Shown here piece after piece: positions 204-54,278 of a stretch of 64,000 nucleotides of DNA. Within the stretch, counting starts at the first letter, position 1, and the number at the start of each line of letters is the position of its first letter. The notes under the pieces are model-generated. The model was not told the origin of the DNA. It ran no database searches and saw only the letters and a list, made by a program, of their open reading frames with translations. Location of the stretch: NCBI RefSeq assembly GCF_001625215.2, contig NC_030387.2:33007606-33071605 (forward strand), in the 5' to 3' direction. The stretch comes from Daucus carota subsp. sativus (Eukaryota; Streptophyta; Magnoliopsida; Apiales; Apiaceae). The position numbers and the translations under genes were made by a program.

Positions 204-3200
204 CTACTTGGGAAATAGTTTCCTACAATGTGTTCCTGACTGCAGTCGCAGTCTCAGACCAGTTGTCCCGCCACATAAAACCTCACCAATCAAGTCTTTG
301 AAGATCATACGCTCTATATCTAATACTATTTCTGGGAGCTCAAAATTGTAAGCTGCCCAACCGGATTCATTTATCATGTCTGCACTTAAGACTGTTGTGA
401 TGCTGTCATAATCACCAACTACGCTGGAGTCTGTAGCAGATTGTTTATGAGTAATTTTAGAGCACAGTTCTTTGAAAAGTTTATCTCCTCTCATGCTATT
501 TTCTGCTCTCAAATTTTGGTGAATCCATGGTTTGACTGAACCTGTCAAAGTTGATTTGAGAGCAAGAATCTCATTCACAACATCAAACAGTAGCTTCCTC
601 TGAATTGCTTTATTGAATTTCGATTGTCTCTCTTTTTCATGGTTTTCTTCTACAAGCTTGGTGTTACACATCACTTTCTCTAGCACACAAAACAATTTGG
701 GACTCAGGGGTAGTTCTGATGGATGCAGCTGAATGGCTGTCAAGTTGGATCCACGATCCATAAGTATTCCCGCTGCTACTAAAATCTGAGCAATATATCT
801 GTGTTCGGAATTGTTATCGTCACAAACAGATTCAATGCAACTTTTGGTAGCTTCATCTTGACTGTTCACTAGTCGAAGTTTGTGAATCAAGTGATCGATG
901 TTTTCAAGTTTTCCTTGCTCAAACCTGTAGCTGCAACTAGATTTTTTTTTGTTCTTTATGTGATCTATATACACTGCACCCCGTTCTGCTTCGCCACTAT
1001 TTTCAGTATCATAATCTGAGCGCAGATAAAATCAGTGTCAGAAATTTTACCCTTTTAGGTAAATGCTCATATTTAAAATTATATTAGAACAAATTATTAG
1101 GTTCTTGATTATTAGCAATTTAGCATGCATGGACATCATTTAGAGGACTGAACAAACTTTGCAATATGCACATAAACAAGCTGGTCCTGTGGTGTGGTAT
1201 TGGTTGACCTACATTTAGGTTAGAAGTTTTAGCTGAAAATTTTGTCTGTTGAATGGATGAAGATACAAATAGTTGCAGCTTTAGTTGAAGCTCTTTTCAC
1301 TGTAGATTTATACCTACCTATTCATGCATCATGAAGTCTGTCCTTTTAGTTGTATTCTAGATCATGATCACTCTATTTATTGTTGCTCTAATAGCAAATA
1401 ATTCATTGTGCAGTAGTTATTGTCATTATTGTAAGTCGAATGTGGAGATGCACAGGAGTTGAGTTAAATAGGAAACTAACCTTGAAAAGCACTTGGTATC
1501 TTCTTGACAGGAGATGGGAAGTCTTCTTCATAGAATGTAATATCGAGAACTGAGACAGGACTTGGTTGTTCCAGTGTGACTGCCGCAAGTTCAGCATTTA
1601 ACACATCTTCAGCCAATCTAGTTGTGAAATTCTGGACAGGAAATAAAAAACCTATTAGTATGTTGTATAGTATAAAGTATGTAGTATATAACATATGACA
1701 AAGTAGATAGAATCACTCACTTCTTTATTAGGGTCCTTGGGTCGGAAAAGGTCTGTAATCTGCTCAAGATGATTTTGTCCTGGTTTTTCTGTCCCAATTT
1801 GTGAATCCGGGCTACTGCTACTTTCTGATTGCATAGAAACTGTATCACCTTGGTGACTCGAGTTTCTTGATTCATTACTTGACCTGTTCAATTGGTCAAT
1901 ATCTTGCTGCGGATAGGTTGGTTTTGCTCGAAAGTTTCTTGTTGGCAAGCTTGATTGCACCGGGTGCATAAATGATTCCTTTCTGGACATTCCAGGATCT
2001 GGTGATTGGGTGGTCGAATAGGTAAGCTTGTCGATCTCTTTCTTCTTCTGCAATCTTTGGCCCGCGTTCCTTGAGTTCCCTGCATAACTGGCATGATTAT
2101 CTCCCCCAATGTGCTGAGGCACTCTCTGCTGTTGAGATGATTTAAGAATTTCAACCTTTGTCTTTACTATGTTGGGAGGTTGGGCCCAACTTGAAGCATC
2201 TCTAATATGATTTCTTTTCAGAGCGATATGTGTAGCTTTGCGCCTGCCAACTAGTTCCAATATGTTGTGGTCGTTGTCACCAGACCATTTTTTATGAAAA
2301 ACTGGTTTGCAATCAGTCTTAGTTGCAGGTTTCTCAATTTGTGTAGTTGGTTTCATTATCACAATCTGGGATCCATGTCGTTTGGGAGAACTAGACCCCT
2401 TGACGATGGGTGAGGTAGGATTGTTAGTTTGCCTCTGCTGTATGGACACCCGATCAAAGCTGCTGGATGGGCTGCATTCGCTTCTGTGAGACTCAAATTG
2501 TGTAAGTTGCTCTTCTTTCTTGTTCTCTAAGATCTCTCTTTTCTTTTCCATTGCCTCAAGTATCTGTTTAAGAGCCCTAAGATCCTTTCCAGACCTTTTG
2601 AATTCAAGTTCAGTCAACCTTTTCTGAATCTCACCATAAACAGAAGGTGATGCCTGGGAAGACTTTTTAAGAGGTTCTTGAATTTTCAAGCTTTCGCCGT
2701 CTGTCCTTTTCCATGGAGCTGGTTCTAGTGGGGATTTTGAACTTGAGGTTGATTTCTTGAGTGGGTTATCATCTTTCGATCCAGGAATCCTTGACACAAT
2801 CGGGGATCCAGTTACTTGATTTTGCTTGCTTTTGTCGTATATTCTTGATGTTCTTGACATTGCATCAGAGTCTTCCTTAAGTAAACTTTGACTCTCATCT
2901 GGGGTTGGTTCCAAGCCCATTAGCCTGGCCACAATGGCAGATGGTCGCTTATTACTTCCAGGCTCCTGGTTTAGGGACGTAGTTTGTCTGGAAATACCAT
3001 TTTCAGTACCTCTTTCAATAGGCTGATAATTTGATCGAGATTGAGATGCAGAAACTCTAATGCAACGCTCTCTACTGTCCAGTGATAGCCTCGGAAGTTC
3101 TTTGAGCTTTGCCGTTGATTTCAATTTATCTTGTGAAATCCTTTCGTCATAAGAGTACCGAGGAGCATCCCTTGGTGTCAGAGTTGGAGAACTGTACTTC

Positions 3201-4653
3201 TGTTCTTTGGCAGTGCGGGGTGCACCTCGAGACTTCCCTACAGTGCGCAATGATCCATCATTTCTGGTAAGTTTTGTGTTAACGGATTTATGCTGCTGAA
3301 AAGGCCTCGGAGAATCTATGTGCTTCATGGCTTTCACCCCGACTTTTTCTTTTGTGGTTTTGACGGATAATCTATTTGTTTCTCTGTACATGGAGTCCTT
3401 TACTATATCCCGAATATCAAGGGATTGCGGCAACAAGTGGGGGGAGGAACTTGGTTGTCTAGTGAGCAATGGTGGGGATGTAATTTTGGTACAGCTACTT
3501 TGGCAGGATGATGAAGGTTCTGATTGAGCTTTTTTATTCCAATCAGCTGATGAGAAGGTTGACGAGGAACAAGATGATGAAAAGGATGTACGCGATGGTT
3601 CAACAGGGGCCATTAGCTTCTCTTTTCCTACCTGTTTCAAACGCATTTGTAAGTTAACTATCCCAGAAGTACTGCTTCTAATAAGTAATTTGTGTTGCTG
3701 AAGTATAGAATTTACCGGTGTTTCTTGCCTTGTCCCACTCTTCTCCATTCCATGATTGACATACTGACCTGTGAGTATAAAGTACAAAAAATCAGATTTA
3801 TAGCGATGAAGACATGTTCGTGCTCAAGCATGGGATCTCCGGTCTCCACTCTCCACACATTACAAAGACGCATATAACAGTAAGTATACATGCATAACCA
3901 AATTATGACTCTATTCTAACCTAGGCATTTAATCAGAGACTATCAGCATGTCTATGCGTGTTAAGTCGTTAAATTTAACTCCAAACACAGAAAGGCAATG
4001 GTTTGATGTATGTTAATGCAACTCTTACAAACAGGTTTCATGAACTGGGTTCTGAGGATATATGGCAGAAGTCAGAACAGCGAAAATATGTCTCAAACTA
4101 GATGGATTCGTAAGTAAAATTCCTTCAAATGATATATGAAATTTTAAAAAGTACATTACTCCCTCTGTCCCATTTTAACTGATGTTTGACTTTTTAACAC
4201 GTATATTGAGGTGTAAAAAAATAGTATCTACACTCAATAAAATTTTTTAATTCTTATATCAAATTAAAGTTTGGATTCTAAACTTTTATTTGATACAAAT
4301 TTAATAAAGATTAATTATGTCTACATGTGATTTTGTTAACACCTTAAAATACGTGTAAAAAAGTCAAAAGCAGTTAAAATGGGACGGAGGGAGTACTGTA
4401 AGTTGAAGCGTCTTGATTTTAGTTTTTCTCATTCTCACACATTCAGTGTTCTTTATTCAAAGCACCTAGAATTAAATACCAGGTATTGTAAAAATATACC
4501 TGATGGGAGTCTTTTGTGGCTATGGCCATTGACTCGTCGGCCGGTAAGAAAATATTGACGGCCAAAGAGCTGAAATATTCCGCTCATGCATCCAAGCTGA
4601 TTCTGCACATCTGTTCCTTTATCTGTTGCTGAATGTAAAACCTTTGAAGACAT
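204..4653 (-). CDS. LNG1/2-like: LONGIFOLIA/TRM-family protein (four coding exons, 1054 aa)
   Basis: Coding exons on the minus strand: 4653-4500, 3768-1721, 1631-1481 and 1015-204; all junctions are GT-AG, phases agree and the sum is 3165 nt. The N-terminus carries a GCMSGIFQLF block (about residues 17-26) as in LONGIFOLIA1/2. An ARLMGLEPTP motif lies near residue 330, typical of TRM (TON1 recruiting motif) proteins. The last exon holds the C-terminal DUF4378 domain (about residues 854-1035, ending with the block RMIFKDLIGEVL). The middle is Ser/Pro/Lys-rich and looks disordered. Family knowledge: LNG proteins associate with cortical microtubules and promote polar, longitudinal cell elongation. 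At 1054 aa it is somewhat longer than Arabidopsis LNG1/2 (a little over 900 aa). An upstream in-frame ATG at 4671 would add six residues (MKKEVK); 4653 is preferred because family members begin MS(A/S)K. Intron 1 holds a Stowaway MITE. Confidence 0.93.
4159..4393. mobile_element. Stowaway-like MITE in LONGIFOLIA intron 1
   Basis: 235 bp with terminal inverted repeats starting CTCCCTCTGTCCCATTTTAA and ending with its complement GGGACGGAGGGAG, flanked on both sides by TA, the Stowaway (Tc1/mariner) target duplication. No coding capacity. Confidence 0.9.
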
Positions 4654-10300: not shown

Positions 10301-10324
10301 TTTAAATACTAATCTTCGAAATAA

Positions 10325-13038: not shown

Positions 13039-15748
13039 CTAACGTATGAGCGGAACACTGTTGCCCATTCTAGTTCCAAGGTATGAAGTGGTTGATACAT
13101 TAGACTGCATGTAGAGAACTTTAGAGTAAAAATCCCAGTACGAGTTTGTCTCATCTATGTGACTTTGTCCAAACGGATGTTTCTCTACGTATTTCCTCAT
13201 GTTACCAGTAGTAGCCAACTTTTCCACATAAACACGAAGATCACCACCTGGGCCTGTAATGAGAATGCATTTTCGTTTTATAAATATACATCCAATGATA
13301 TACTAATAGACCATTTCGAAGTTCTAACATCATAAAACAAGAGAGCTCACCTAAAGAAGTATCATGCTTGTCCTTGTAAGTAAAGGAATAAGGGAATACA
13401 GCAGTGTGCATCTAGAATGTCAAGATAAAAAAAGAAAAAAAGTTCATGCAATTAGTAAGTTCTACATCAAAAAGATAGTATTAAATTTAAAAGATAGCTC
13501 AAGGCTAATAAAAACAGGCGACAATACTTACAGGATTAAGCAAAGCCTTATGTGGAGAGTCATCTAGCAGCAATGTGTTTGATTCATTGTAAACACCCTT
13601 TTCCCAAGGTAGATCATCATCATAACCTTCCCAAATCTTCCTCAGATCCTTGCAAACTAAGGGTTTGTGCTTGTTTTCTAGAGTATAGAGCCCTGTTTTA
13701 GTACACTTGGACAAATCCTGGAAAAAGAAACAATTAAATTATTAATTTACACCATGACAAAAAAATATATATTATATTAATTTACAATACATTAAACCAA
13801 AGTGGTTATTAAAAACTTACACACACACACACACCCCCAAGCCCAAAAAAAAAAAAGAATGCAAACAACTTCAGGTGCTGGTTTGTACTCTATATACCCA
13901 AAACCAAATGAAAAGTGTTGCCCAGATATTATGCCAAAAGCTATCAGTAGTTTCCAAATAAAATGAGACTTACTATCCCACATGGTACATATGATGACTA
14001 AATAATTATGTTGTACAGTAAAATTCAAATCCTCGGACTCACAAGATTCTACAGTTGCCACAAGAATATAGGCCTGCCGAGGCTCAGGGTTTTGCACAAG
14101 TTTCCCAGGGTTCCACATATGAGTATTCCCAGAACTTCTTACTATATTGATGGCAGGTTTCACTATGAATTAGAAGTGTTCTACAATACGCAAACTTCCT
14201 CCGAACTAAAATTATACTTATTGTCCTCTCATCTCTAGCCATGTTATATATTCAGTGCTTTTAAAACCATCTTATTTGTCACCCCAAACAATATTATTGT
14301 GTGAAGGGCTGAGGGCCTTTTGCCTATAATAACTATAGCCCTTCAAGCAATTTAAGATGGGCTCTCTAGAGTGCCCTGCAATCTTCAATTATATATAGAC
14401 AAATACAAAGAAAATTTTTAGCACATACCCAAGAGAACACCAAGTTGTGCTTCATATCTCCCAACAAATAATCGATCACCCGATCAACTACCTTCCTAGA
14501 CATATGAAATCAAAATAGTAAGAATGAGAAGCCAGGCTAAATATATCAGGACAGCAGAACAAAGAAATAGCCTATATAAGCTTAACAAGTACTTGGATCT
14601 TGAAGACCAAATCCCCACATCGAAATTGTCGAAGCAAAACCTTAAAAATTCTTGATAGAACGGTCGCTTGAAAACTGTGCCATGAAGGAAATTATCATTT
14701 ATGCTTAGCGCCAAAATATTTGAAGCACCAGAGGTTCATATAACATAATATATAGATAAGTGTGTGTGTGTGTGTGTGTGTGTAGTTCTTACTGGCTCGT
14801 CTTAAGATATTTATGTCCCCTCTGCAGTCCTTTGGTGGAGGAGAAACTACATCTGCAAGAACCCCATTTACATCAAGAATGAGCAGCTTTCTCCTTGAAG
14901 ATGTTCTTGAGACTATTTTTGGGGGAGGACGTGAAACAAGAAATCTGTCCGCTCTGTCAATCTGTGTTGAAGAAAAATGTTTTGCCACCACTCTGCTCAA
15001 CGGTGGATGTTTTTTATGAACCATGTTTGTAGCTGGGCTTTTTTTGGAGCAAGTAGCAGTGCAACGAAATGCGTTGTCACATAAAAGAGTAACACAATTT
15101 CCTATACCCTCAGATCGCAAGTGAGGATCACAACGAACCGCACCATGATCATGTTGAAATTCATGAGAAAATGACTTCAACATGGCATCAGAGTCCCTCT
15201 CCACCAGTACAGTCTCGTCTGAGAAGTAAAAACAGATTTAACATTATGAATGTAAAGTGCTACATATGAAAAATGGAACAGTACGCAATTTTGTCAAATA
15301 TTGGTTTGAATTTTAACATGGAGGCATATATAGACGCGAACACTTCATATTTAAGAAAAAGTTCCATATGGTTACCATAACAAAGCTTGGAACATTTTCT
15401 TGAAGATTTAGATTCTTTAACTTGAGTCTGATTTGTACTTGATTCATCATTCTTTCCCTTTCTATAGTAGTCGTCTGCTAGCCAATGACTGGACTCAGTT
15501 TCATTATTGCTTCGAGTGCAATATCTTTCATTGAACTTATGCTTCATCAGTCCTCTTGTCAGTTCGTTACCTGTTTGCTCTGCACTCCCTTTGACAAGAT
15601 CTTTTTCTGTATCTACTTCCATTTTGAGATTTTTGAAAACAAAAGCATTCGCAGTTAATTCTATTTTGCCCTGTGAAGAACCCCTGGATACTGTTTTACG
15701 TTCAGTTGTCGAAGAACTCCAGATATTAATACGATGGTGGACCAACAT
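13039..15748 (-). CDS. FCP1/NLI-interacting-factor-type HAD protein (seven coding exons, 469 aa)
   Basis: Coding exons: 15748-15376, 15218-14793, 14674-14593, 14495-14429, 13717-13532, 13411-13351 and 13253-13039; GT-AG borders and phases agree and the sum is 1410 nt. Residues 1 to about 210 are low-complexity and Ser/Lys-rich. The HAD domain begins with KLLILDVNGVLAD at the end of exon 2, followed by RPFYQEFLRFCFDNFDVGIWSSR, then WDLSKCTKTG, NTLLLDDSPHKALLNP and DTSLGPGGDL. These are the ordered motifs of plant FCP1-homology proteins. The usual catalytic DxDx(T/V) is DVNGV here: the nucleophile Asp is kept but the second Asp is Asn. Phosphatase activity is therefore uncertain. The first ATG after the exon-start acceptor at 15751 is taken as start; upstream exons look non-coding. 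Confidence 0.88.
13818..13840. repeat. (CA)n and C-run in an intron
   Basis: Short simple-sequence run of CA followed by C bases and then A bases, inside an intron of the HAD gene. Confidence 0.7.
14759..14784. repeat. (TG)n microsatellite in an intron
   Basis: About 12 TG repeats immediately 3' of the second exon's splice donor (gene on the minus strand). Confidence 0.85.
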
Positions 15749-17025
15749 ATCCTACAGCATCCTTGATCATTCATTGATTGTACGCGATTTTAATATGGGT
15801 AAGTAGCAGCCACTGAAAGGATAAATTTACAACAATGAGCTGAATATTGACATTTAAATAATAAGAAACAACAAGCAGCTGAAAGAATAAAATTTCAAAA
15901 AAATAACACTCAAAAGGCAAATGAACAAAAAGAACGATTGTATTATATAATATCAAATTAATACTAAAAAATACCTTTATATACTGTTTGCTCATTGTTT
16001 AATTTGTTTCACTTGCAACATTAATAAAGTACCGAATATCCATATATGAAGATTAGAAAGCAAAATGCAATAGAGAATGTGGAAAATTGGTTTAGAAGGC
16101 GGAAGGCGGCAATAGGCAATAAGGTCTTCAAAAGACAATGTGCAAAGCACTGAAACAAAGACGGGCGCTTCAAGCAAGTGAATCGATGAGAACCATGCAT
16201 GATTATAATGCACTCATATTTATGTAGCAGTAAATTATAAATAGTAGTGAAGTGCAAAAAAATTAAAGATAAACACAAACGTTAATCAAAAGATCGGCAT
16301 AGTACTTTGGACGTATAATCTATTTAAAGTATGTTTCTGCTGAAATTAATATATTCCACTCATATTTGTCATATGCGTGTTAACTACTATACCCTAGATT
16401 TAATTGAAAAATATAACAAACAGAAAATTTTCTATATGATCTTGGAAATCGGATAAAATTGAGCATTCTGTCGCAAGAATAGGACTCCATAGGTGGTTGG
16501 TTACGTATCAAATATATAGTTTTATTTATTGTAGTTAGCAATATATATAGTATACGGTATTTCAATTTTAATTTACAATAAAGGACATGCTCAAAAAAAT
16601 AAATTAACAACAAAGTAGAACTCGGCAAAAACAAAATATCTTTTAAAAGTGACACATCATTTCTCCTTGCAAGCAAAGGCGCGAACTTAAGTTCTCCTCG
16701 CAATAAATAATCTGTAATTTTAAACCAACAAGAAAAATCCAAAAATCACTATACTATCTGTATTCAGGCACCTCATACGGTTACTTATTGTATTTTCTCC
16801 TTCAACACAATTTAACTATTCAAGTACATTACGAAAATCCCCCAGTACTTCAGTCAATTACGCAACCAAACACATTTGCCTCAAAACACACCTACTGGAT
16901 AGCCTTCTAAATTGCTCTTTAAGGAAGTGAATTTGACAACCAATCAAATTTGATTAAGCAAAACTGCAACACTATGACAATTTCATATATACACATATAT
17001 ATCATTTATAGTCTGTGTATATTAC

Positions 17026-22259: not shown

Positions 22260-22274
22260 ATATAATTTTACGAA

Positions 22275-23359
22275 ATGGGTCGTGGGGTTAGTGCCGGCGG
22301 AGGCAAGAGTTCCTTAAACTACCTGTTTGGAAGTGGTGAAAATTCAAACAGCCCTCCACCAACTCAGAACCAGGGATCAGACTCAAAGAATGTTGCTCCA
22401 CCAAAGCCTGAAGAACCCACAAAGCCTGTTGAAGCTGAGCCCAAGCCTGTTGAAACCAAGCAGAGCCCAGCAAATGTTCATGATAGTAAGACTAACAATT
22501 ACCTCAGGTCTGAAGGACAAAACTGTGGCAACTTTATCACGGTATGGCATTATCATGAACTTAAACACGTTTCATACTTTGGGATCTGTATACACGCTAC
22601 TCAATTCCATGATACTTGAACCTTTTTATTACCTGAAGTTCTTACTTGACTACTTGCAAAATGGCCTCTCTTGGGTGTTTGTTAACAATGCATTCTTCAT
22701 TATGTCTTGAATATATATAATAACGCTAAAAATCTATAGGTAACAAATATATCTGAGTGTACCTTATATGCAACAGTAGTTTTTAGATTAACACAGTGAA
22801 GTTGGCTGCGTTTTAAGAAATAGTTTTAAAGTTAACACAGCGGAGTTGGCTATGTTTTAAGAGAAGCTTGGATCGTGTCTTGGTATTATAGGTTGCACAT
22901 AGTGTGAAAATTGGTGTTACCTAGACCTATTAGACCTGTTGAACTTTCTGTTATCTTTTGGGAAGTACCATACTCGGAGCTTTTGTGTTATCAAAATGTC
23001 CTCTCTTGGGTGTTTATTAACAATGCATTCTTCATAATATCACTAAAAATCTGAGGTAACAAATATATCTGAATGTACCTTATATGCAACAGTAGTTTTT
23101 AGATTAACACAGTAGAGTTGGCTACGTTTTAAGAAATAGTTTCAAAGTTAACACAGCGGAGTTGGCTATGTTTTAAGAGAAGCTTGGATCATGTCTTGGT
23201 ACAATAGGTTGCACATAGTGTGAAAATTGGTGTTACCTAGACCTATTAGACATGTTGAACTTTCTGTTTTCTTTTGGGAAGTAGAAGTACCATACTCGGA
23301 GCTTTTGTGTTACCCTACATGTCAGCTGAACGAATCACATGGTTATTACGACTAAGATA

Positions 23360-23407
<48 letters not shown>

Positions 23408-23754
23408 TATATATATATATATATAGGCAATTGCTCAAATAGAAACCACTATATATATATATATAGATAGATAGATAGATAGATATATGGGCATTTGACT
23501 TTGCTAGGAAGTAATTGCATTTTATAATTTGCTGGATTGTTAATATGTAAACTTGATTTTCACCAGTTTTTTGCTTTGCATTTTATAACAATTACAGACT
23601 AGTTACTGATTATTCAATCCTCGTGCTTATCATATGGTTTCAACACAACTAATTGAGTTTTACTTAATTGTAGGATCGCCCTTCAACTAAAGTGCATGCT
23701 GCCCCTGGTGGCGGTTCGTCCCTTGGGTATCTCTTTGGTGGTGATGGAAAGTGA
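22275..23754 (+). CDS. SP1L: SPIRAL1-like microtubule protein (two coding exons, 115 aa)
   Basis: Exons 22275-22541 and 23674-23754, donor ACG|GTATGG and acceptor GTAG|GATC, phase 0, 348 nt with stop. The N-terminal GGGKSSLNYLFG (residues 8-19) and the C-terminal GGGSSLGYLFGGDGK are the two paired motifs that define SPIRAL1 and its SP1L relatives. Between them is a Pro/Glu/Lys-rich linker, presumably disordered. Family knowledge: small plant-specific proteins that bind microtubule plus ends and lattices and keep cell expansion straight. Length is normal for the family. The intron carries a tandem duplication and an AT microsatellite. Lying near the LONGIFOLIA-like gene, it matches the order of LNG2-SP1L3 in Arabidopsis. 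Confidence 0.95.
22661..23314. repeat. Tandem duplication of about 325 bp in the SPIRAL1-like intron
   Basis: 22661-22990 and 22995-23314 share the same text in order: CTCTCTTGGGTGTTT, AACAATGCATTCTTCAT, CTTATATGCAACAGTAG, GCGGAGTTGGCTATG and AGAAGCTTGGATC, with a few substitutions and small indels. Each copy also contains its own internal doublet around AACACAG..GAGTTGGCT. Confidence 0.88.
23357..23481. repeat. (AT)n / (GATA)n microsatellite cluster
   Basis: Two long AT runs, a third short one and a GATA run lie within 125 bp in the SPIRAL1-like intron. High length polymorphism is expected. Confidence 0.9.
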
Positions 23755-25745
23755 TCTCCTTTGAGCCTACAATCTGTGGCTGCTCTAGCACTTATTTCTA
23801 GCTTGGACAAGTATGCAATTTCTAGACGTATTTTATCACAATGTACAATTATGCAGTGAATATACTTGATTTGCAGTCAACTTTATTAATGTGCTGCTTG
23901 GGTTTTTAGTTTATGATGCCATTTCATATGCCCTTTATATATCTGAATGTTGTAACTTAGAAATGCCAGTATTTTATCACCATATAAGCCTATATATGCT
24001 ACCAACTAGCTACTTGGTTGAATTCCTGTTGCCTGCATTCTCAACTAAACACAAGTTAAGGAAAAGAAGCATGCTTGAAATGGTCATATTCGTCAATGAT
24101 ATTGCAGACTAGAAAATAGAAATATAAAGCGTAAGCACTACTGCATCGTTCTAGTTCCCGGATCTCAGGCGTTCCAAACAACCACTGTTCTTTCCCTTGA
24201 AAAGAGTTCATCATTTCATCATATCGGCACCTCCATCTAGTTTACTAGAAAAGAGTTTTTCTGTTATTCAGTGAATTCAGTTGAATTGCATCAGATAAAG
24301 TCCAGGATTTTGCTTGCAGACTACCAAGAACGTATGCTGCTAAGCAATTTTTCAAGCCACTCGATATCCAGAACAATAGTTTAAACTAGATTGTCGACCT
24401 AAAAGTTTGTTTTATACTCAACTTCAATATTCTAGATGTTAAACTTCATTTTGTGTTAATAAAGGCGACTTGCATAGCATGTACACGTACGTACTTACTA
24501 TCTATATATTGGCAAATTTGGAAACTTCATTTCCTTGACAACCTCTTATTTTACACCATTTTTACATCATCATTCATAGAACGATGTTATACAACATACA
24601 AGTTGGTAATTTCATCCAAAAACTAGGATACTAAATCGATACTCCCTTCCCCTCAATTTATATACCGGGGACGCGGACACAATGCGCATTTTAATTCTCT
24701 AAAATATACTCCATCTGTTCAAGATTTTTTACGTTATTTTTCGACACGCATTTTAAAATTCTTATAAAATATAATTCTATAACATTTTTAAAATTCTTTT
24801 CCTAAATAAAAGTTTGACGTTTAAACTTTTATTTTTTAAAAAAAGAAAAAAGTTTAAAAATATTTTGTGAAACTATATTTTATTGAAATCTCAAAATACG
24901 TGCAAGCAATGAACATAAACAACGTGGGACGGAGGGAGTAGTACTATAATCTATTTTTAATAAAAATTACTATTTAAATCTTTTATTCGTAAAAATAAAT
25001 TTGAAACGATATAAATTATACTTTATAATAATATTAAAATACATTCGAATAATTAAAAACGAAGAACACTACGGGAAGGGGAGGGAATATCAAACAGCCA
25101 CGAAAAAGTAAAAACCGAAGATTGTATGACCATAAAATCAAGCAGATACTTTTTCGTCCAAGAATGTGATCTCTTTCATTGGCTAGTATTACATGACCTC
25201 GTAGTTCCGTAAGATATTTATATTATTATTTCGTGGTCTGTAAATAATGTTATATGAAAATTCTCTTAAACATAAACTATAACAATGATTTTCGAAATAT
25301 GAAAAGTCATAACCTTATTTACCAATGATAAAATTTTGTGACCTATTAATTAATAATTTACTATAATTAAAATTTGAGCCTCAGCTTTGCACGTTCTTGA
25401 AACTTCAAAGGACGAATCCGATACTGCAGATGACAATCCATGCGGTATGAAAAAAGAAATAATTACAAAATGATTCATTCGAGATTACAAAGCTGTGAAC
25501 ATAATACAGTAAAATCTAACAACATTGATGGAAGAACCAGGTACTTGACTTTTGTCAGGTCGGGTCTTTTAAATTATTCTGGTATTATAAGAATTTTCAG
25601 TAAAAATAACTTAAACCAAACGAGTAACCATAACTGAGCGACTAACGGAGATGACAATACGATACGATCATACAAGACTGTACTTGGCCAAAGAAGATAT
25701 GGAGATGATTATATTCATGGACATGAATACGTGTTATTATTTGCT
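23755..25745. other. Intergenic, 3' UTR of SPIRAL1-like gene and AT-rich DNA
   Basis: No gene seen beyond the 3' UTR. Contains a Stowaway-like MITE at 24709-24938 with a partial related end just before it (near 24652). Confidence 0.6.
24709..24938. mobile_element. Stowaway-like MITE
   Basis: 230 bp from CTCCATCTGTTCAAG to GTGGGACGGAGGGAG, flanked by TA on both sides. Arms complementary with mismatches. A CTCCCTTCCCCTCAATTTAT end about 55 bp upstream is a remnant of a related element. Confidence 0.8.
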
Positions 25746-26105
25746 TTATCCCGAACCTCTTTTGCAAGTCACAGTTTTACAAAGTCCGTGCGACCGAGTT
25801 TTTTGTAGAGCTATGCAAGCTTCACTATATGACTTGCTTCTTGCTTTACAGAAAGAACTTTGTCCAGTGTCAGTAGCGTCATAGCTTATAGATCTGCCAC
25901 TGGTCCCAGCAAGCCGTCTGCCTGGGCTATGCATTAGCAGCATCTCAACTTCGTCTCCAGCGCCACAGTCACCTATGGTACCATTGCACACAGAAGCACC
26001 CCTGTAGCCATCACCTGCAGCTCCTCCTAGTTTTGTGCTGCCCGAAACTAATATTATTACTAGTAGTAGTGAACACACGAGGCTAGAATTATTTCTCGAA
26101 TTCAT
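25746..26105 (-). CDS. RALF-like secreted peptide precursor (119 aa, intronless)
   Basis: Single exon, ATG at 26105. Residues 1 to about 30 form a signal peptide (hydrophobic core LVCSLLLVIILV). The propeptide has CNGTIGDC (40-47), the paired-Cys block usual in RALF precursors, and a dibasic RRLA site (63-66) like the subtilase cleavage site of canonical RALFs. The mature part starts near residue 67 and carries ISYD (73-76), matching the YISY receptor-binding motif, and four Cys at 86, 97, 109 and 114. RALF1 spacing is 9, 12 and 5 residues between Cys; here it is 10, 11 and 4. The NPYxRGC block is not recognisable, so this is a divergent member. RALFs are apoplastic ligands of CrRLK1L receptors; one such receptor gene lies 6.6 kb to the right. 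Confidence 0.87.
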   Translation of the reverse strand: MNSRNNSSLVCSLLLVIILVSGSTKLGGAAGDGYRGASVCNGTIGDCGAGDEVEMLLMHSPGRRLAGTSGRSISYDATDTGQSSFCKARSKSYSEACIALQKTRSHGLCKTVTCKRGSG

Positions 26106-26172
26106 TTCTGTATGATCTCCCCCTTTCTTTTTTTGTTTAACTCTTATGTGAAAGTGGTCTTACATATGCCCG

Positions 26173-32620: not shown

Positions 32621-32694
32621 ATGTCTTTAAGCAAAGTGTACTCATTTCATGTAAACCAATGCTTTCATTTCTTGAAAAATAAGCTCGAACACAG

Positions 32695-35256
32695 ATGGGT
32701 GGGTTTTCATTGCATCTCTATATTTTGCTCTCCTGCATATTTTTCATGTCCAAAACATACATATATGCTACTGACAACATCCTCCTCAACTGTGGCGCAC
32801 CTCACAACACAAATTCTATGGATGGCCGAGAATGGGGCATTGATGCTCTAAACACTTCAACATCAGCCACCACCGAACAAAAGCCTTCCATAGATATTCC
32901 TTACACAACAGCCCGCTTCTTCACTTCTAAATTTACCTATACAATCCCTGTCTCCGAAGCTGGTCAGAAATTCCTTCGCCTCTACTTTTACCCCGCAAAC
33001 TACTCAAATGATTATGATACGGCCACATCATTTTTCAATGTCGATGCAGCGAACCACGTTCTTCTATCCAACTTCAGCGCGTCTCTCAACCTGCAGCCCG
33101 AGTCATCAACTCTCGTCAAAGAATACGTCATCATGGTGAGTAGTGTGTTAATGGTGACATTTACGCCGTCTCCAGGCTCGTACGCCTTTGTCAATGGAAT
33201 TGAAGTTGTTTCTATTCCCGACAAGTTGTACATTAACGGTGACTATGCAAAATTTGTGGGTCAAAAAACGGAATTCAGTATAATTGATTCTATGGCACTC
33301 GAAAAATTCTACAGGTTGAATGTAGGCGGCCCTCACATTTCCTCTACAGAGGATACTGGAATGTTTCGGTCATGGGATGGAGACAAGCCATATCTGGTTA
33401 AGCCTGGTCTTGGGTATGAGGTAACAAATGTATTTCCAATTAAATACCTGCCGGCCACTCCGTCCTCCATGGCCCCCGCGACTATTTATTTCAGTGCACG
33501 GACACTGGTAAAAGTGAATCACGGCTCCAACATGACTTGGAGCTTTCAAGTTGATTCCGGGTTTAGTTATCTACTAAGACTTTTTTTTTGCGAGATTGTC
33601 GATTTAGTGACAGATTATAATGTAAGAGTATTTTCTATTTTCATCAACAACCAGACAGCAGAGGACGCCTTTGATGTTTTCGCTATGGCTGCCGGGAGTA
33701 AAATTCCAGTTCATAAAGATTACGTTGTTATTGTAAGTGACAACCCAGATGGTAGCAAGTCTAAGACGGATTTGTTGCTTTCTCTGCGCCCTAACAAAAC
33801 ATCTAATCCTGTAGCTGAAAATACAATTTTGAATGGGTTGGAGATCTTCAAGCTGAGCCAACCTGGAGGTAGCCTCGCTTCGCATCATCCGCCTCATCCG
33901 CCTAATCCACAATCCGGGCCATCGCCTCCATTAGAAACAGGAAAAGACAATGAGAAAGGCGGTTCATCTCACTCCCTACTTGTGGGTGCTTCTATTGGAG
34001 GTTCATGCGGCGTGATAATCTTGTTTTTACTGATTGTTGGCTTTTTATTTTTCCGGAGAAAAAAGAATTCTCAGAATGTCGACAACAAGTCAACACACGA
34101 CAAGTCGAGATCAACTAACACCAACAATTCATCATTGCCGTCTGTTAGAAGCCGGAAATTTTCTTTGAAGGAGCTAAAACACGCTACTAGCAACTTTGAT
34201 GACAATTTTGTTATTGGAGCCGGAGGATTTGGTAACGTGTACAAAGGGTATCTGGACAATGGTACATACCCTGTAGCAATCAAGCGACTGAATCAGTCAT
34301 CGCGACAAGGGGCTAATGAGTTTCAAACAGAGATCAGGATGCTATCAAATTTACGCCACGTCCATCTTGTACCACTGATTGGATACTGTAATGATGGTGA
34401 CGAGATGATACTGGTTTATGAGTACATGGTTAACGGGACTCTCCGTAGTCATCTTTACAGGGGGGATAATTCCCCTTTGTCATGGAAGCAAAGGCTAAAA
34501 ATCTGCATTGGCGCAGCAAGGGGGCTGCATTATCTCCACGAAGGTGCAGAGCGTGTGATAATGCATCGTGACGTGAAATCGACTAATATTTTATTGGACG
34601 AGAAAATGAATGCCAAGGTGTCAGATTTTGGTTTGTCCAAAATGGGGCCTAGTGACGCGTCAGTCACACATGTCAGCACAATAGTAAAGGGAACTATGGG
34701 TTACTTAGATCCTGAGTACTATCGACGCCATCAATTAACTACCAAATCAGATGTTTATTCATTCGGAGTGGTGATGTTCGAGGTGTTATGTGCTAGGCCA
34801 GTCATTATGCAGCAGGTACCGAAGGAGCAAGTGAGTTTAGCTGAGTGGGCTCGAAACTGTTACAGGAAAGGCAGCCTTAGTGAAATAGTGGATAAGAATC
34901 TAATGGGGGAGATTGCAGTGGAGAGTTTGAATAAGTTTGGAGAGCTAGCATGTGGTTGTTTACGGAACCAGGGGATTGATAGGCCTAGCATGAGCGACGT
35001 TGTCTGGAGCCTGGAATTTGCATTGCAGCTTCAAGAGGCTTACGAAGATTTGGACAAAAAGCTGCACCCAGGTTCGGGTGATTCAGCTGTCAATCTTGTC
35101 AGTGGAGCCGGGGACGACTTTGCCAAGGACGACGACGACTTCTTCTCAACCACAATTGTCGCTAAAGCCAGTGAAACCTCGACGACAAGTACTAGTAGTG
35201 ACCAAATGAAATCCGGAAGTGTTTTTTCTGAAATTCTGAACCCGAATGCACGATAA
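32695..35256 (+). CDS. CrRLK1L (FERONIA-family) receptor-like kinase, intronless, 853 aa
   Basis: Signal peptide at residues 1 to about 26. A malectin-like extracellular region (about 27-395) opens with NILLNCGAP and contains FRSWDGD. A short Pro/Ser-rich stretch follows, then a membrane segment (428-453) with a basic stop RRKK. Kinase domain about 502-775: glycine loop GAGGFGNV (508-515), VAIK with Lys530, HRD (624-626), DFG (644-646) and GTMGYLDPEYYRRHQL. HRD and DFG are intact, so an active RD Ser/Thr kinase is expected. The lack of introns and the FEVLCARP block are typical of the family. Members such as FERONIA sense RALF peptides and wall state at the plasma membrane. I cannot tell FERONIA itself from a close paralogue; FERONIA is about 895 aa. 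Confidence 0.95.
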   Translation: MGGFSLHLYILLSCIFFMSKTYIYATDNILLNCGAPHNTNSMDGREWGIDALNTSTSATTEQKPSIDIPYTTARFFTSKFTYTIPVSEAGQKFLRLYFYPANYSNDYDTATSFFNVDAANHVLLSNFSASLNLQPESSTLVKEYVIMVSSVLMVTFTPSPGSYAFVNGIEVVSIPDKLYINGDYAKFVGQKTEFSIIDSMALEKFYRLNVGGPHISSTEDTGMFRSWDGDKPYLVKPGLGYEVTNVFPIKYLPATPSSMAPATIYFSARTLVKVNHGSNMTWSFQVDSGFSYLLRLFFCEIVDLVTDYNVRVFSIFINNQTAEDAFDVFAMAAGSKIPVHKDYVVIVSDNPDGSKSKTDLLLSLRPNKTSNPVAENTILNGLEIFKLSQPGGSLASHHPPHPPNPQSGPSPPLETGKDNEKGGSSHSLLVGASIGGSCGVIILFLLIVGFLFFRRKKNSQNVDNKSTHDKSRSTNTNNSSLPSVRSRKFSLKELKHATSNFDDNFVIGAGGFGNVYKGYLDNGTYPVAIKRLNQSSRQGANEFQTEIRMLSNLRHVHLVPLIGYCNDGDEMILVYEYMVNGTLRSHLYRGDNSPLSWKQRLKICIGAARGLHYLHEGAERVIMHRDVKSTNILLDEKMNAKVSDFGLSKMGPSDASVTHVSTIVKGTMGYLDPEYYRRHQLTTKSDVYSFGVVMFEVLCARPVIMQQVPKEQVSLAEWARNCYRKGSLSEIVDKNLMGEIAVESLNKFGELACGCLRNQGIDRPSMSDVVWSLEFALQLQEAYEDLDKKLHPGSGDSAVNLVSGAGDDFAKDDDDFFSTTIVAKASETSTTSTSSDQMKSGSVFSEILNPNAR

Positions 35257-46424: not shown

Positions 46425-46751
46425 GGATCTCAGAGTTGATGTTATCACATTTGATGATATGATTTTCAGTAAAATATTTTTCATTAAAATATATGTTCAA
46501 AATTCTTCTCTCAAAATAATTTTTATCGAAACAAAGTTGAGAAAAAATTCCTTTGATCTAGTTTTTAAAACAGAATCTATTCATAAAAATATATTATCCA
46601 AACGAAGTTGAGAAATAATTTCTTTTATCTATTTTACCAAACAAAATCTGTTCATTAAAATATTTTCAACAAAACTTTTCCCGAAAATTTTTCAAAGAAC
46701 TAAATAATTCCAGGACACATAATTTCTTGAGAATATTCTGAAAACCTTTCT

Positions 46752-47284: not shown

Positions 47285-48848
47285 TTCTAAAATACTTCTG
47301 GGCATTCTTAACTTTTCTGACATGAAATGGACGTGGATTTTGAAATATTTAAACTTATCAAATTGTCTGACTCCACAGCTTTGGAAAGAGAAATATGAGT
47401 CTCTGTAGTCTGTACATATCTTACAGATTTTAATGTCTTTAAATTGATATAATTTTTCTAATTTTTTCCAAATTTTTTTAATTTACGCATAAATCATCTG
47501 GAGAGGTATAAAAAAATGTCATCTCGACAATGAAAACAAAATAGTTCACGAGTTATCAATTGATTTATGCGTATTTACGAGTTTCCATTGTCACCTGGAC
47601 AATGAAAACGAAACCAGATACATAATGATATATCATCGAGAAAATGCATAATGATATATTAGGAACAAACGAACTTTAGGAATTTGTAAACAAAAGGAAG
47701 GAAAATAATGAACTGAGCAATCCAACAACAGTTGTCTTTTCTGTTAATGAGATCGAGACTTTCTATTCTCCACCGACACAGCCTAATAATATACACGATT
47801 TACATCCATCCACTATAAAAATAAAGGAAAATCGTATGGGTTAAGAATTGCCAACTGATGCTAGCTGCTTTGCTTATTTGTCACCTGCTGTCGGCGAGTC
47901 TCACAGAATATTGGTTTGATTATATTATAATAATGCTTACATAATTATTTAGTACTAACGATCTGGTTGTCAATTATTGTATTGTATTAGTGTGGGTAAC
48001 ATATCTCAATCACACACGAGACTTGACTCGGTAAAATACCATCCAGGAAGCCTAGGGTAAAATTATATAAATATTTGTTTTTTAGTGTAAGGTGTTGGAA
48101 TTCACTGTCTAGAAGGCTATGCGTCAAAATTCAAAGGAATACATATCAAATTTGTTTCCGTAAAACTCAAGTATAATTAATCATACTATTACTTTTTATT
48201 GAATTCGTAGCTTAATATGATTTTTCAGTTAAATTGATCAAATTTAATGAAATTTACATATTATAAATCAAAAATATTATAAAAATCACATCTATAATAT
48301 AATTTTATAAATGGTTATCCACCATTTTCAGTTTTCTTTTGTTGCAAAACACAATTTTCAGTTTTGAATTAGTTATTTTGATATAAAAAGTCAAAAATAA
48401 ATTACTAATTTAGTATATATAAAAATGGATGGATTTAGGATAGCCCACTATTCATGCTAAATAATTAAATGTGATAGAGAAATTTCAGCATACTTTCTAT
48501 TATAATCTAAACACAATACGTTACATGCAGCACAAAGTAAACGGCTTTCAAAAATTCATATCCTCTAGGAGTATCTTTATCCTATAAACAATTAGACAAG
48601 CATGCAAACAAAATAATAAAAACTACAAGAAAGTGCAACAAAAACTACAAAGAAAAATAAAAAAAAAACCCAGTGAAAATGGTGTTATTAATGGCGCAGA
48701 AGAACAGTAACATATACATACAGAAGTTAACAGCTGTGAACGTATAGAAAAATCTTTAAAAAATCAAGTTAAATATGGAACAGTAGCTAGTATGCTGAAA
48801 AGCAAGCCACTACTTACCACTCACCACCGTCATCATCTTTACTCGCAA

Positions 48849-48856
48849 TATATAAA
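48849..48856 (+). promoter_or_regulatory. TATA box of the second COBRA gene
   Basis: TATATAAA about 75 bp upstream of the ATG at 48931. Confidence 0.55.
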
Positions 48857-48930
48857 CACACACACAAACACATCTTTTTATCTCTCTGCTCTTTGGTTGC
48901 AGATCTTGAACATAACAGATCAAGAGCAAA

Positions 48931-50480
48931 ATGGGGTTTTGTCTGAGATCTCTTCCACAATTTACAGCTTATGCCATTTCACTTGTGCTTTTCCTCTCTG
49001 CCTTCACCTTTACTTCAACAGGTTCACTTATTTCTCTACTTTTTTGTGTACTTTTAATTGTTCTTGGTGATGGGTGTGTAAAAGATTGAATCTTTTTGGT
49101 TTGAGTGATTGGGTAGTGTATGCATTTGATGAATTATGATTCTTTTTCATGTGGGTGTATCATTAGAGTTGAAATTTTGTGTTGGGGTGAAAAAAGTTTG
49201 GTGCTTTTTGATAATTTAGAGATTGGAGTACTTGTTTCGGATTGATGATCAATTGGTGTGTTGAATTTGAGATTTTTCTTATATTTTGGTGCTGAATGTG
49301 AAGAAAAGATCTCTTAAGTGGACAATTGATGTATATGATTGTTTCTTTTCGAGGGGAATGTAGTTTTATATTGTCCGAAAATATGTTTCCTAATTGCTAA
49401 TAAAATGGATCTGTTCATGGGATATTGTTTCTGGCTGATCTTTGTGAATTAGTCAACTTGCTATGTTTTAGAAGATGTGTTCATTCTGGTTATACTTGTT
49501 CTTGCAGAAGCATATGATCCGCTTGATCCAAATGGGAATCTTACGATTAAATGGGATGTCATAAGCTGGACACCTGATGGATACGTGGTAAGTGTTACCA
49601 CAGTCTTGAATCTTGTTAATGATGATTGGCAATACTTGTCCCAACCCTCAAGTGACCCCTGATATGTCAACATCTTAAAGACTCAGAGCTTTATAGTTTA
49701 TGAAGCTAATACAGATCTTCCAAATTATTACAAAGCTGTTGTACCTGGCATTTTTGTGGAGTTTTGTTTTGTAACTTAGTATGGAATGTTATCCATGTGA
49801 AAAAAATTATATGAACAAATATTTCATCTCTATAACTTGGAAGGAAGGAGATGAATTTGTAGGGACACTGCCTGAAGAAATAGTTTGGTACTGTGACTTA
49901 AAATACACTCGGCATGTGCCTAATTATAGTATATAAGAAGGTTAAAATGTAGCTATTCCATTTTTTGGGAAATTTCATATAGTTTATACAACTAATCCTG
50001 CGTGTTGTGAAAAACATTACTTAATTTACTATATGAGCGAATGGCAGCAAAAATCTTTTTGGTTTCTAGGTTTTCACACTATTAACTAGAAAGTGTCTTA
50101 AATTGTAATAACAGCACATCATTGTTGATTGTTCCATCCTCTCCTCCTGGAGTATAAATAGTTTATACTACTATAGCTTATTAACTAGGCTTTTACACTA
50201 GAGTAGTCCAATAACACCACTTGTTCTCTTGCGATCTGTATCTAATCTGATGCTTATGTGCATTGGTTAGGCTATTGTTACAATGTTCAACTTCCAGCAA
50301 TATCGTCATATTCAAGCACCAGGATGGACTTTAGGTTGGACGTGGGCTAAAAAGGAAGTAATATGGAGCATGGTGGGTGCTCAAACAACAGAGCAAGGAG
50401 ATTGCTCAAAATACAAAGGGAATGTTCCACATTGTTGTAAGAAGGATCCAACGGTTGTCGATCTACTACCTGGAACTCCA

Positions 50481-50512
<32 letters not shown>

Positions 50513-51919
50513 AGGAGTACTTAACTCATGGGTCCAAGACCCATCCAATGCTGCAAGCTCATTCCAGGTTAGTGTTGGTGGAGCTGGAACTACCAACAAA
50601 ACAGTTAAGGTGCCTAAGAACTTCACATTGAAAGCACCGGGGCCTGGCTATACATGTGGACCAGCCAAAATCGTCAAGCCAACTAAATATGTTACAGCAG
50701 ATGGAAGGAGAGTGACACAAGTCATGAGTAAGTATTGCTCCACAACATTGTACTTCTTAGGCTATGATTGTTGTATATAATTAATAATCCTCAGAATATC
50801 GACCAATTTTTTCCAAATTTAAACTATATTTACCCCATATCATTAACTAAATTTTAGTTCTGTTTGAGTTAACTTTCATTAAAAATCTAATAATTAGGGA
50901 CAGGAAGAGGGCAAGAGGTTTGTAGATTCTGCTGATAAGTATGACAATATAACTTATTTGTACGTTATGGCAGTGACATGGAATATTACATGCACATACT
51001 CACAGTTCCTGGCTCAGAAAACTCCGACTTGCTGTGTTTCTCTGTCATCTTTCTACAATGAAACTATTGTACCTTGCCCTACATGTACCTGTGGCTGCCA
51101 AAACAATAGTACTCATCCAGGCAGCTGCGTAGAGTATGTTTTTGCCCCTTCATCATTTTTCCTGTTAGTTCTTTGGTAACCAGTATTACTATAGTTTTAT
51201 AATAAAAACTGAACCAATGTCTACTGTTATACAGCAAGAAGTCTCCATATTTAGCCTCCGTTGTTTCGAGCCCTAGCAAGAACAACTATGCACCTCTGGT
51301 TCAGTGCACAAGTCACATGTGTCCAATCCGAGTCCATTGGCATGTAAAACTCAACTACAAGGACTACTGGAGGGTGAAGGTTACAGTTACGAACTTTAAT
51401 TACCGGATGAACTATACACAGTGGAACATGGTTGTCCAACATCCGAACTTCGACAACCTTACTCAGATATTCAGCTTCAATTATAAACCATTAACTCCTT
51501 ATGCAGCAATTAGTAAGCATCTATCTTTTCTTTCTTTGTTTTTTCTCACAAAGAATATGCATATTCCAAAGTTTTTGAAGCCTCAATTAGATCTAATAGT
51601 TCTTTCGTATCTATTTTGTTGAACAGATGATACAGCTATGTTATGGGGTGTTAAGTTTTATAACGACTTTCTCTCGCAAGCTGGCCCACTGGGGAATGTC
51701 CAGTCAGAACTACTCTTCCGGAAAGATTCATCGACTTTTACTTTTGAAAAGGGCTGGGCTTTTCCTCGAAGAATCTACTTTAATGGTGACAATTGTGTCA
51801 TGCCACCTCCCGACTCTTATCCATATTTGCCAAATGCCAGTTCAAGGCAACAAATCTCGTTACTCACTCTGATGGTTACACTGTTCTCATCACTGGCTTT
51901 CTACTTCGCATACGTTTGA
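48931..51919 (+). CDS. COB: COBRA/COBL1-like GPI-anchored protein (six exons, 452 aa)
   Basis: Exons 48931-49021, 49508-49587, 50271-50727, 50974-51133, 51235-51512 and 51627-51919; sum 1359 nt. Signal peptide of about 31 residues, mature start EAYDPLDPNGNLTIKWD. It keeps HCCKKDP, CCVSLSSFYNETIVPCPTC, VQCTSHMCPIRVHWHVKLNY and the C-terminal NASSRQQ (likely GPI attachment at Asn or Ser) followed by a hydrophobic tail. Length equals that of Arabidopsis COBRA (456). Family role: a GPI-anchored cell-surface protein needed for oriented cellulose deposition in expanding cells. Of the pair, this is the conserved, probably ancestral-function copy. COBL1 (At3g02210, from memory) occupies the matching position in Arabidopsis. 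Confidence 0.96.
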
Positions 51920-52547
51920 GGATCTGATAGTGTTTGTAATCTATATATGGAGTGTTCATTGCCAAAATTAAGCCCAAAAAATTTCTAGAAACCTCTCAGC
52001 TATGCTTCGTGGTTTGTGTTGCTCGGTGAAGATCTGGAATTGACTTGGATTCAGGTGCACACTTTGGAACGATCATCTGCATCTGGTTTTTATTTGTGGG
52101 TAAATTAGTTCTTGTCACGTCACTTGTAACCTTTGTACCATGTCTTTATCCTAGTCTTAAATTAGTATTGTTAGTAGGATTTCATGTTTATAGTAATACG
52201 AAAATTGTAATAAGCTCAAAAACCACTCAAAGACAGACAAATTTAGTGCTGTTTTACAATTTTGGTTATGTTTATCTTTGTCATTATTATTTCTGGTATA
52301 TGATTTCATTTAAACCCTTCAATGTGTATTTAAGTAGTCTAAGACTAGGCAGGTTTAAGTAGTACTTGTGACCATAAATATGTCAAAACAGAAGAATACA
52401 GAATAGCATGGCTATACGCCTATACCTCCAAAATGTCATGCCTTTTTATACTATTAATTAATGTGTACACAACTCTGTATACATAAATTTCTAGTGCCCC
52501 AGTCCCCTGAGCTTCAAAACTTCAGTATATTGAAAAACAAAAGAAGG

Positions 52548-54278
52548 TCAATGCATGATAAACAATAAGAAAACTGCCCAAATAATAAGTGTGGAGTAAC
52601 CAATTAGATTTCCATTTGCAGAATTTGGTAGAAATGGGTACGTATCTGGTGGTGGCAGCATGCATTCTTCACCATTGAAGTAGACTTTCCTCGGAAACGC
52701 CCATCCTTGTTTAAAGGTAAATGTGTTCTGGTCTTTCTGAAGAAGCACCTCAGACTGTACATTTCCGAAGGGTCCTGCTTCCATTAGTTGATCATTGTAG
52801 AACTTTGTGCCATAGAACATACCTGTGTCATCTGCGCAAGATGTAAACAGTCTTAGTTATCAGTACATCATTACTTCTTCAGGCTATGTTAACAGTTTTC
52901 AGAATATATGCACTTACTGACAGACTGGTAGGGCACTATAGGTTTATAATCAAAGCTGAAAACTTGAGTTACGTTGTTCAGATTTGGATGCTGAACAACA
53001 AGAGTCCACAATGTGTAGTTCAACCGGTAGTTGAAGTTTGTTAACGCAAGCTTCACCCGCCAGTAGTCCTTATAGTTGGCTTTGACATGCCAGTGTACTC
53101 GGACCGGGCACATGTGATGTGTGCATTGTAACAATGGAGAGTTGTCTTTTCTTGGAGTGTTTACCCCAACCACACTCAGTAGTTTAGAATCACTCCTGCA
53201 ACATAGTGGATCATTAGATAAGATGTCTAATTCTGTTGAACTTTGTTATGAAGGTTTAGAAACCGGAAAGCCAGCGCAAGCTTACTTGACGCATTTGTTT
53301 CTTTTGTTTTCACAACCACATGCGCAGCTAGGGCAAGGAGTTATGGTCTCATTGTAGAAAGATGAGAAGGAAACGCAACAGGATGGGTGTTTTCTCGCTA
53401 GAAATTGTGAATAAGTGCATGTCACGTTCCAAGTCACTGCACATAATACATTAGAAGTTTGTGAAACTGTTTAAATTTGTCACCAACAAACTGCAGACTA
53501 GGTATATTGTATGAACTTACTGAGGGCCTGAGTTTTCCTTCGACGATCAGAAGTGAGAAAATTGGTGGGAGGGACAATCTTAGCAGGGCCACAAGTGTAG
53601 CCTGGTCCTGGACCGAGTAATGTGAAATTCCTAGGTAGCTTTACCGTCCTGTTTGAAGTGCCCCCCTGACCGACACTCACCTGGAAGGCCGAGACAGCAG
53701 ATGCTGGATCTTGCCCCCATGCGGCCAAGACCCCGCCTTTGCAGCAGTTATTGATTTGTTGGTTGTAAGGGACACCAGGTAGCAGGTCTACAACAGTGGG
53801 TGTTTTCTTGCAGCAGTGCGGAATGTTTCCCTTAAACTTAGAGCAGTCTCCTTGTTCTGTCGTCTGAGACCCTACCATCGACCATATTACTTCCTTCTTG
53901 GCCCATGTCCACCCCATAGTCCAACCAGGGCTCATAATGTGCCTGTACATTTGGAAGTTGTTCATAGTCACCATTGCCTGAGAATTATCCCATCACACAC
54001 TTTCTTGTCAGCTGCCAATTTTACACTTTTACATATCTATGAAAAATATATTCAAACAAGAATGGTACTCACAACATAGCCGTCTGGAGTCCATGACATT
54101 ACATCCCATTTGATCGTTATGTTTCCAGTTGGGTCCAGGGGATCATAGGCAGCTGCATATATGAAACCTTATAAGAAATGTATATCACTACACATTCTTT
54201 TACATCAAATTTAGTTAGACTTTTACCTGCACAGGCAAAGAGCACGACAATGGAGAGAGCGGAGAAGATGGTTCTCAT
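52548..54278 (-). CDS. COBL4: COBRA-like protein 4 (COBL4/IRX6 type; six exons, 433 aa)
   Basis: Exons: 54278-54227, 54152-54073, 53977-53521, 53436-53286, 53195-52918 and 52831-52548; sum 1302 nt. Signal peptide of only 16 or so residues (MRTIFSALSIVVLFACA), mature start AYDPLDPTGNITIKWDVMS. The diagnostic COBL4 features are NNFQMYRHI, AAWGQDPAS, CGCENKRNKCVK, NTPRKDNSPLLQCTHHMCPV, DTGMFYGTKFYNDQL and a short NSANGNL GPI tail. COBL4 (rice BC1, Arabidopsis IRX6) functions in secondary-wall cellulose of xylem and fibres. It converges tail to tail with the COBRA gene, about 630 bp between stop codons. In Arabidopsis COBL4 (At5g15630) is next to the carrier At5g15640. Confidence 0.96.

Follow-up and report, generated by a model that had tools for sequence, protein, structure and literature searches.

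The 64,000-nucleotide stretch of carrot (Daucus carota subsp. sativus) DNA analyzed here, hereafter the window (C7:33007606-33071605, where C7 is contig NC_030387.2), carries LONGIFOLIA-like (LNG), SPIRAL1-like (SP1L), eL39, mitochondrial carrier and COBRA-like (COBL) genes, the relatives of which are divided between two segments of the Arabidopsis genome. We conclude that the window is very probably one of several carrot sister copies of an old flowering-plant gene block, each copy having been fractionated differently; it is an ordinary, well-preserved member of this set of sister segments. An original prediction had proposed that the window is the unfractionated ancestor of the two Arabidopsis blocks, merged into one gene order. 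The six families on which that proposal was based were all found together in positions 204-54278, and the correspondence of the window to both Arabidopsis segments is supported at the level of gene families and locus numbers. The term "unfractionated" is refuted, because two genes present in both Arabidopsis blocks, eIF3m and RGP, have no match on C7.

The Arabidopsis segments, At3g02160-02230 and At5g15570-15650, were delimited from locus numbers printed in excerpts of published papers, and the loci given in the original prediction for LNG1/2, SP1L3/4, eL39, COBL1, COBL4 and the carrier agree with these numbers. LNG1 is At5g15580 and LNG2 is At3g02170 (PMC3348943), SP1L4 is At5g15600 and SP1L3 is At3g02180 (PMC11817481), RPL39B is At3g02190 (PMC3830539), COBL1 is At3g02210 and COBL4 is At5g15630 (PMC3533923), and the mitochondrial carrier is At5g15640 (PMC11676349). 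Both blocks contain eIF3m (At3g02200 and At5g15610; PMC4844609) and RGP (RGP1, At3g02230, and RGP2, At5g15650; PMC3675317). At3g02160 is given as a Bromodomain transcription factor (PMC4413256), and one maize gene has At5g15570 given for it alongside At3g02160 and At4g34340. The excerpt of a comparison with peach names At3g02200 in a chromosome-3 group and nothing else of the block (PMC1479338). In carrot, a Bromo_TP gene corresponding to At3g02160 was found at C7:33000301-33001413, about 6 kb to the left of the window.

Because both Arabidopsis blocks carry eIF3m and RGP, neither of which is named in the original prediction, these two genes provide a test of whether the window is unfractionated. 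The genome searched for paralogues consisted of 441 Mb in 11 contigs. The RGP search of this genome yielded 32 rows, none of them on C7, and the search for PCI domains yielded 18 rows, again with none on C7 and with one at C3:46516569. The gene at this C3 position, which we take to be eIF3m on the basis of its PCI domain and sequence, has a further exon at C3:46519209, and these exons lie 6-9 kb from an eL39 gene. When a 60-residue eIF3m-like exon from C3 was searched against the genome to E 1, it matched only itself, and the C3:46.52 Mb gene is the only eIF3m-like copy detected. Nine eIF3m-like and RGP frames from C3, some of which are not certain exons, were also compared with C7:32997606-33081605, and nothing better than E 0.14 was obtained; in the control, eight of the nine frames recovered their own source, and the remaining one, the first eIF3m frame, comes from outside the control sequence.

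The genes lacking a match on C7 are part of a second segment, at C3:46.45-46.54 Mb, where the order is RGP (46.446-46.448 Mb), eIF3m-like (46.515-46.520 Mb), eL39 (46.525 Mb) and LNG (46.537 Mb). This LNG gene is the best paralogue of the window's LNG in the genome search (46% identity) and lies 11 kb from the C3 eL39. A third segment, at C6:25.18-25.19 Mb, contains the closest paralogue of the window's carrier (25.184 Mb, 84% identity) and, 8 kb away, another eL39. PF00832 has three matches genome-wide, namely the window, C3:46.525 Mb and C6:25.192 Mb, all of them within the proposed sister segments. The flanks on C3 and C6 were read in stretches of up to 10 kb. Nine gene types were counted (Bromo_TP, LNG, SP1L, eL39, eIF3m, COBL1-type, COBL4-type, carrier and RGP): C7 with its left flank has seven of the nine within about 62 kb, C3 has four and C6 has two. 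LNG and eL39 are common to C7 and C3, which combined have all nine, a pattern that is one of reciprocal loss between sister segments, as in Arabidopsis but with other survivors. LNG and RGP also occur together at C4:40.889-40.906 Mb, and LNG, COBL and RGP at C3:15.90-16.16 Mb; because the LNG matches there are weaker (33-34% in their longer pieces), these pairings were taken as an older layer. The three weaker SPIRAL1-like paralogues (on C8, at C7:11.35 Mb and on C2) are not near any block gene.

As in sister segments left by genome doubling, several unrelated families of the block lie close to one another again elsewhere in the genome, and this clustering was compared with chance. Eight families had 54 places outside the window, among which 5, 6, 9 and 11 cross-family pairs lay within 25, 50, 100 and 300 kb, relative to means of 0.14, 0.27, 0.56 and 1.62 pairs under uniform random placement; at none of these distances was the observed number attained in 3000 random trials. 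For this count, exons of the same gene and near neighbors were merged (three C9 RGP genes became one place) and the window's own matches were excluded; the 25 carrier rows comprised one in the window, seven kept as places, one merged and sixteen weaker ones that were left out. C2 was assigned the length left over from the genome total. These numbers are to be read in light of the facts that the families were picked from the Arabidopsis list, that the positions were already known when the test was carried out and that pairs sharing a cluster lack independence, the C3 cluster accounting for three of the six pairs at 50 kb.

We propose that an ancestral block with the order Bromo_TP, LONGIFOLIA, SPIRAL1-like, eL39, eIF3m, COBRA pair, carrier and RGP would have been copied by genome doublings, after which the copies would have lost different genes (fractionation). 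In the C7 copy, seven of the nine types would have survived and eIF3m and RGP would have disappeared, the copy at C3:46.45-46.54 Mb would have retained LNG, eL39, eIF3m and RGP, and the C6 copy would have retained the carrier and eL39. Independent fractionation in Arabidopsis, after doublings of its own, would have left two blocks that resemble halves of the window.

It is very unlikely that the window is instead the unfractionated ancestral block, split in Arabidopsis alone. Such a block is favored by the proximity of seven of the nine types on C7, in about 62 kb, but the two genes without a match on C7 accompany LNG and eL39 on C3, and the order of the carrier and COBRA genes differs from that in Arabidopsis. 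Furthermore, in the excerpted account of the carrot genome (PMC6995200), carrot underwent two tetraploidies of its own, which are placed at 46-52 and 77-87 million years and make the survival of one intact ancestral segment unexpected. Marginally less probable still is that the C7 lineage never had eIF3m and RGP, which would have joined the Arabidopsis and C3 blocks independently; the window would then be complete. Consistent with such a history, C7:32997606-33081605 yielded no trace of either gene, but both genes are present in both Arabidopsis blocks and in the C3 block, repeated insertion in the same place is unlikely, and LNG and RGP are also found together on C4 and at C3:15.9-16.2 Mb. 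That co-regulated cell-wall and growth genes (COBRA, LONGIFOLIA, SPIRAL1 and RGP) were kept together by function is hardly credible: these four families act in cell growth or wall building, but eL39, eIF3m and the carrier are housekeeping genes, the genes separate between sister copies, and plain inheritance suffices.

The reading of the window as one of several differently fractionated sister copies resembles what has been described for the carrot paleotetraploid segments named Dc-alpha and Dc-beta, in that heavy gene loss from sister segments and the peaks of synonymous divergence (Ks) reported in the excerpt (0.551 for Dc-alpha, 0.944 for Dc-beta and 1.390 for the core-eudicot hexaploidization; PMC6995200) fit the present pattern. 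This block is absent from the excerpt, and the pairing of C7:33.0 Mb with C3:46.5 and C6:25.2 Mb comes from the present analysis. The synonymous divergence (dS) of the C7-C6 carrier pair was 0.60 (NG86) or 0.68 (YN00) over 196 codons taken from modelled exons one and two, for which Dc-alpha is the best fit. For eL39, dS ranged from 0.57 to 1.16 (NG86) on 50 codons only. Together with the LNG values given below, these ages are suggestive only.

Several points weigh against the sister-copy reading. The C7 and C3 LNG genes are just 46% identical, and their dS of 1.27 (NG86) or 1.08 (YN00) falls between Dc-beta and the older peak. The RGP gene on C6 is 2 Mb away from the C6 carrier. Around the COBRA gene at C6:4.03 Mb, a paralogue of one of the window's COBRA genes, no other block gene was seen for about 10 kb each way. 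Lastly, orthology to the two Arabidopsis blocks was assigned by family names and locus numbers.

The claim that the window presents one gene order is wrong in detail. The carrier (37838-41105) precedes the COBRA genes (44596-54278) in the window, whereas by locus number the Arabidopsis order is COBL4 (At5g15630), carrier (At5g15640) and RGP (At5g15650). The strands also differ: eL39 and LNG are on one strand together on C3, eL39 and the carrier are on one strand together on C6, and the window's eL39 is opposite to both. Local inversions after duplication would be the simple reading of these differences. The window is like the two Arabidopsis segments in having the Bromo_TP (in its left flank), LONGIFOLIA, SPIRAL1-like, eL39, COBRA and carrier families, and it differs in the absence of eIF3m and RGP, which both Arabidopsis segments keep, in the swapped order of the carrier and COBRA genes, and in having both COBRA types plus an extra tandem copy, as opposed to one type in each Arabidopsis segment.

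The original prediction has COBL1-type and COBL4-type genes as neighbors; there are three COBRA genes, not two. They are here called COBL_A, COBL_B and COBL_C, the first two presumably of the COBL1 type and the third of the COBL4 type on the basis of sequence features. Each contains PF04833 and a CCVS motif and was modelled with five exons, in keeping with the COBRA-like clade I, for which the excerpted rule is five to seven exons (PMC3533923). The Pfam search marked a TAG in COBL_A; in the spliced model, the exon stops at 45236, short of this TAG. COBL_C converges on COBL_B, the coding ends being about 0.6 kb apart, and its start codon is likely the in-frame ATG at 54278.

COBL_A and COBL_B are 79% identical, with a dS of 0.44-0.50, whereas COBL_B and COBL_C are 69% identical and are saturated at synonymous sites, such that dS is not estimable; over all COBRA pairs, no dS was obtained for seven of nine with NG86 and for eight of nine with YN00. 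The paralogue of COBL_C at C6:4.028 Mb is 83% identical over the matched exon and 79% identical over the gene model. A tree was built of eight multi-exon COBRA genes, the models all being from this genome. COBL_C groups with the C6:4.03 Mb gene (82/88), and the two group in turn with a pair of longer branches (89/93), separately from COBL_A and COBL_B; one of the five inner branches was starred as well supported. Relative rates differed between the tandem copies: with COBL_C as the outgroup, COBL_A had 37 unique changes and COBL_B had 6 (chi2 22.4), and with the C6 gene as the outgroup, the numbers were 38 and 12 (chi2 13.5). COBL_A has thus evolved several-fold faster than its tandem twin, and it reads PHSCMKNP where COBL_B reads PHCCKKDP; PHSCMKNP is also present in the C3:16.12 Mb gene.

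Arabidopsis COBL1 (At3g02210) and COBL4 (At5g15630) occupy corresponding positions in the two blocks and so resemble duplicates of each other. We somewhat favor the view that they are instead opposite survivors of a tandem pair that preceded the doublings of both lineages, and that carrot keeps this pair intact and has added the fast-evolving COBL_A. The two COBRA types would have stood side by side beforehand, Arabidopsis then keeping one type per block and carrot keeping both on C7, one of them re-duplicated; the third tandem copy, COBL_A, may be acquiring a new role. Neighboring COBRA genes, as in the window, are found in the excerpted descriptions of tomato (adjacent-numbered six-exon genes Solyc02g089120/130 and Solyc03g114890/900/910; PMC3533923), of the cotton G. 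raimondii (three tandem pairs; PMC4692504) and of poplar (two tandem pairs by that paper's own count; PMC10540467). Those excerpts do not identify the neighboring genes as one of the COBL1 type and one of the COBL4 type. Three observations are unfavorable to an old and widely kept COBRA pair. The NG86 dS of COBL_C and the C6:4.03 Mb gene is likewise saturated, and therefore saturation alone cannot date the COBL_B/COBL_C split to before the carrot doublings. In the excerpts concerned, Liriodendron is without tandem COBRA genes (PMC10143436), and in soybean one COBRA gene is called tandem (PMC7830662). A literature search found no paper joining At3g02210, At5g15630 and duplication, and on COBL1/COBL4 microsynteny or fractionation, nothing was relevant by title among the matches listed.

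Table 1. Genes of the window, with positions counted from its first nucleotide.
Feature	Position	Strand	Remarks
LONGIFOLIA-like gene (LNG)	207..3823	-	open frames 207-1031 and 1658-3823; DUF4378 in 207-1031 (PF14309, E 4.6e-30)
HAD/FCP1-like phosphatase gene	13042..15751	-	several short exons; presumed from a motif; absent from the Arabidopsis list
SPIRAL1-like gene	22275..23880	+	ATG at 22275; first exon 22275 to ~22541; second exon at ~23.7 kb, presumed from an antisense frame
RALF-like peptide gene	25749..26159	-	presumed from a RALF-like pattern
eL39 gene	29292-29395 and 29493-29538 (exons)	+	50 residues without a stop; PF00832 match
Malectin-type receptor kinase (CrRLK1L-like)	32683..35256	+	one 857-aa open frame; Pfam malectin-like and kinase domains
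Mitochondrial carrier	41105-37838	-	four exons modelled, no stop; PF00153, E 4.7e-20 for one exon
COBL_A	44596-46421	+	COB/COBL1-looking, fast-evolving tandem copy; PF04833; model without a stop
COBL_B	49486-51916	+	COB/COBL1-looking, slow-evolving tandem copy; PF04833; model without a stop
COBL_C	54162-52552 modelled (52552..54278)	-	COBL4-looking; PF04833; model without a stop
Phosphodiesterase-like gene	right of the COBRA genes		presumed from a sequence pattern
F-box/LRR-like gene	beyond the phosphodiesterase-like gene		weak LRR match; F-box exon in the right flank

The genes of the window are listed in Table 1. The models of the COBRA, carrier and eL39 genes are homology-guided and lack the first few codons, and the start codon of eL39 must be in an upstream exon, outside the two coding exons modelled. 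The name LONGIFOLIA follows the original prediction, and the SPIRAL1-like gene is presumed to be such from the N-terminal motif MGRGVSAGGG, its frame having no match in the Pfam search. Between the block genes are three that have no place in the list of the original prediction: the HAD-like phosphatase, RALF-like and malectin receptor kinase genes. The first of these is taken to be HAD-like from a motif, LLILDVNGVLADV, in the frame 14698-15237; its single exons had no Pfam match above the curated cut-off, and a search with the PF03031 profile failed to recover the gene.

The RALF-like frame likewise had no match in the Pfam search. This gene is only 6.5 kb from the malectin-type kinase gene, and RALF peptides are ligands of the malectin-type receptor kinase family. 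The proximity is probably due to chance, because the kinase belongs to a loose cluster of malectin-type kinases at C7:31.85-33.04 Mb, which includes four relatives of 65% identity at 31.85-32.80 Mb and shorter pieces.

Two candidates for further sister relationships were rejected. A kinase at C3:46512096-46514690, beside eIF3m and eL39, has two kinase stretches and no malectin domain, and the nearest relatives (65%) of the window's kinase are on C7. The C6:4.03 Mb region was not counted as a sister block: among frames of at least 90 residues, the 10 kb to the left of the COBRA gene gave only the end of that gene, and the 10 kb to the right gave a universal-stress-protein frame and a sulfotransferase.

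Several repeats were observed in or near the segments. Window positions 57252-63586 and positions 4156-10000 of C7:33071606-33081605 are related by a recent tandem duplication, the copies being shifted by about 10.4 kb; it contains the phosphodiesterase-like and F-box/LRR-like frames, and the matched pieces are 91.7-97.8% identical. Window positions 19409-20261 carry two head-to-tail copies, 100% identical, of a 428-bp sequence, in surroundings that, from their sequence pattern, we take to be a retroelement remnant; the frame 20063-20788 had no match in the Pfam search. About 5 kb to the left of the C6 carrier, positions 234-6322 of C6:25172372-25182371 contain three head-to-tail copies of a 1995-bp unit that are 99.7-99.9% identical.

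Apart from two points, the history of the window is one of ordinary post-polyploid gene loss. The first point is a caution against taking one non-Brassicaceae segment as "the ancestor", because a segment in which two Arabidopsis blocks are combined may in turn be one half of a later duplication. The second concerns the COBRA family: if COBL1 and COBL4 do descend from the two members of a tandem pair, treating them as duplicates because of their position alone would be a mistake.

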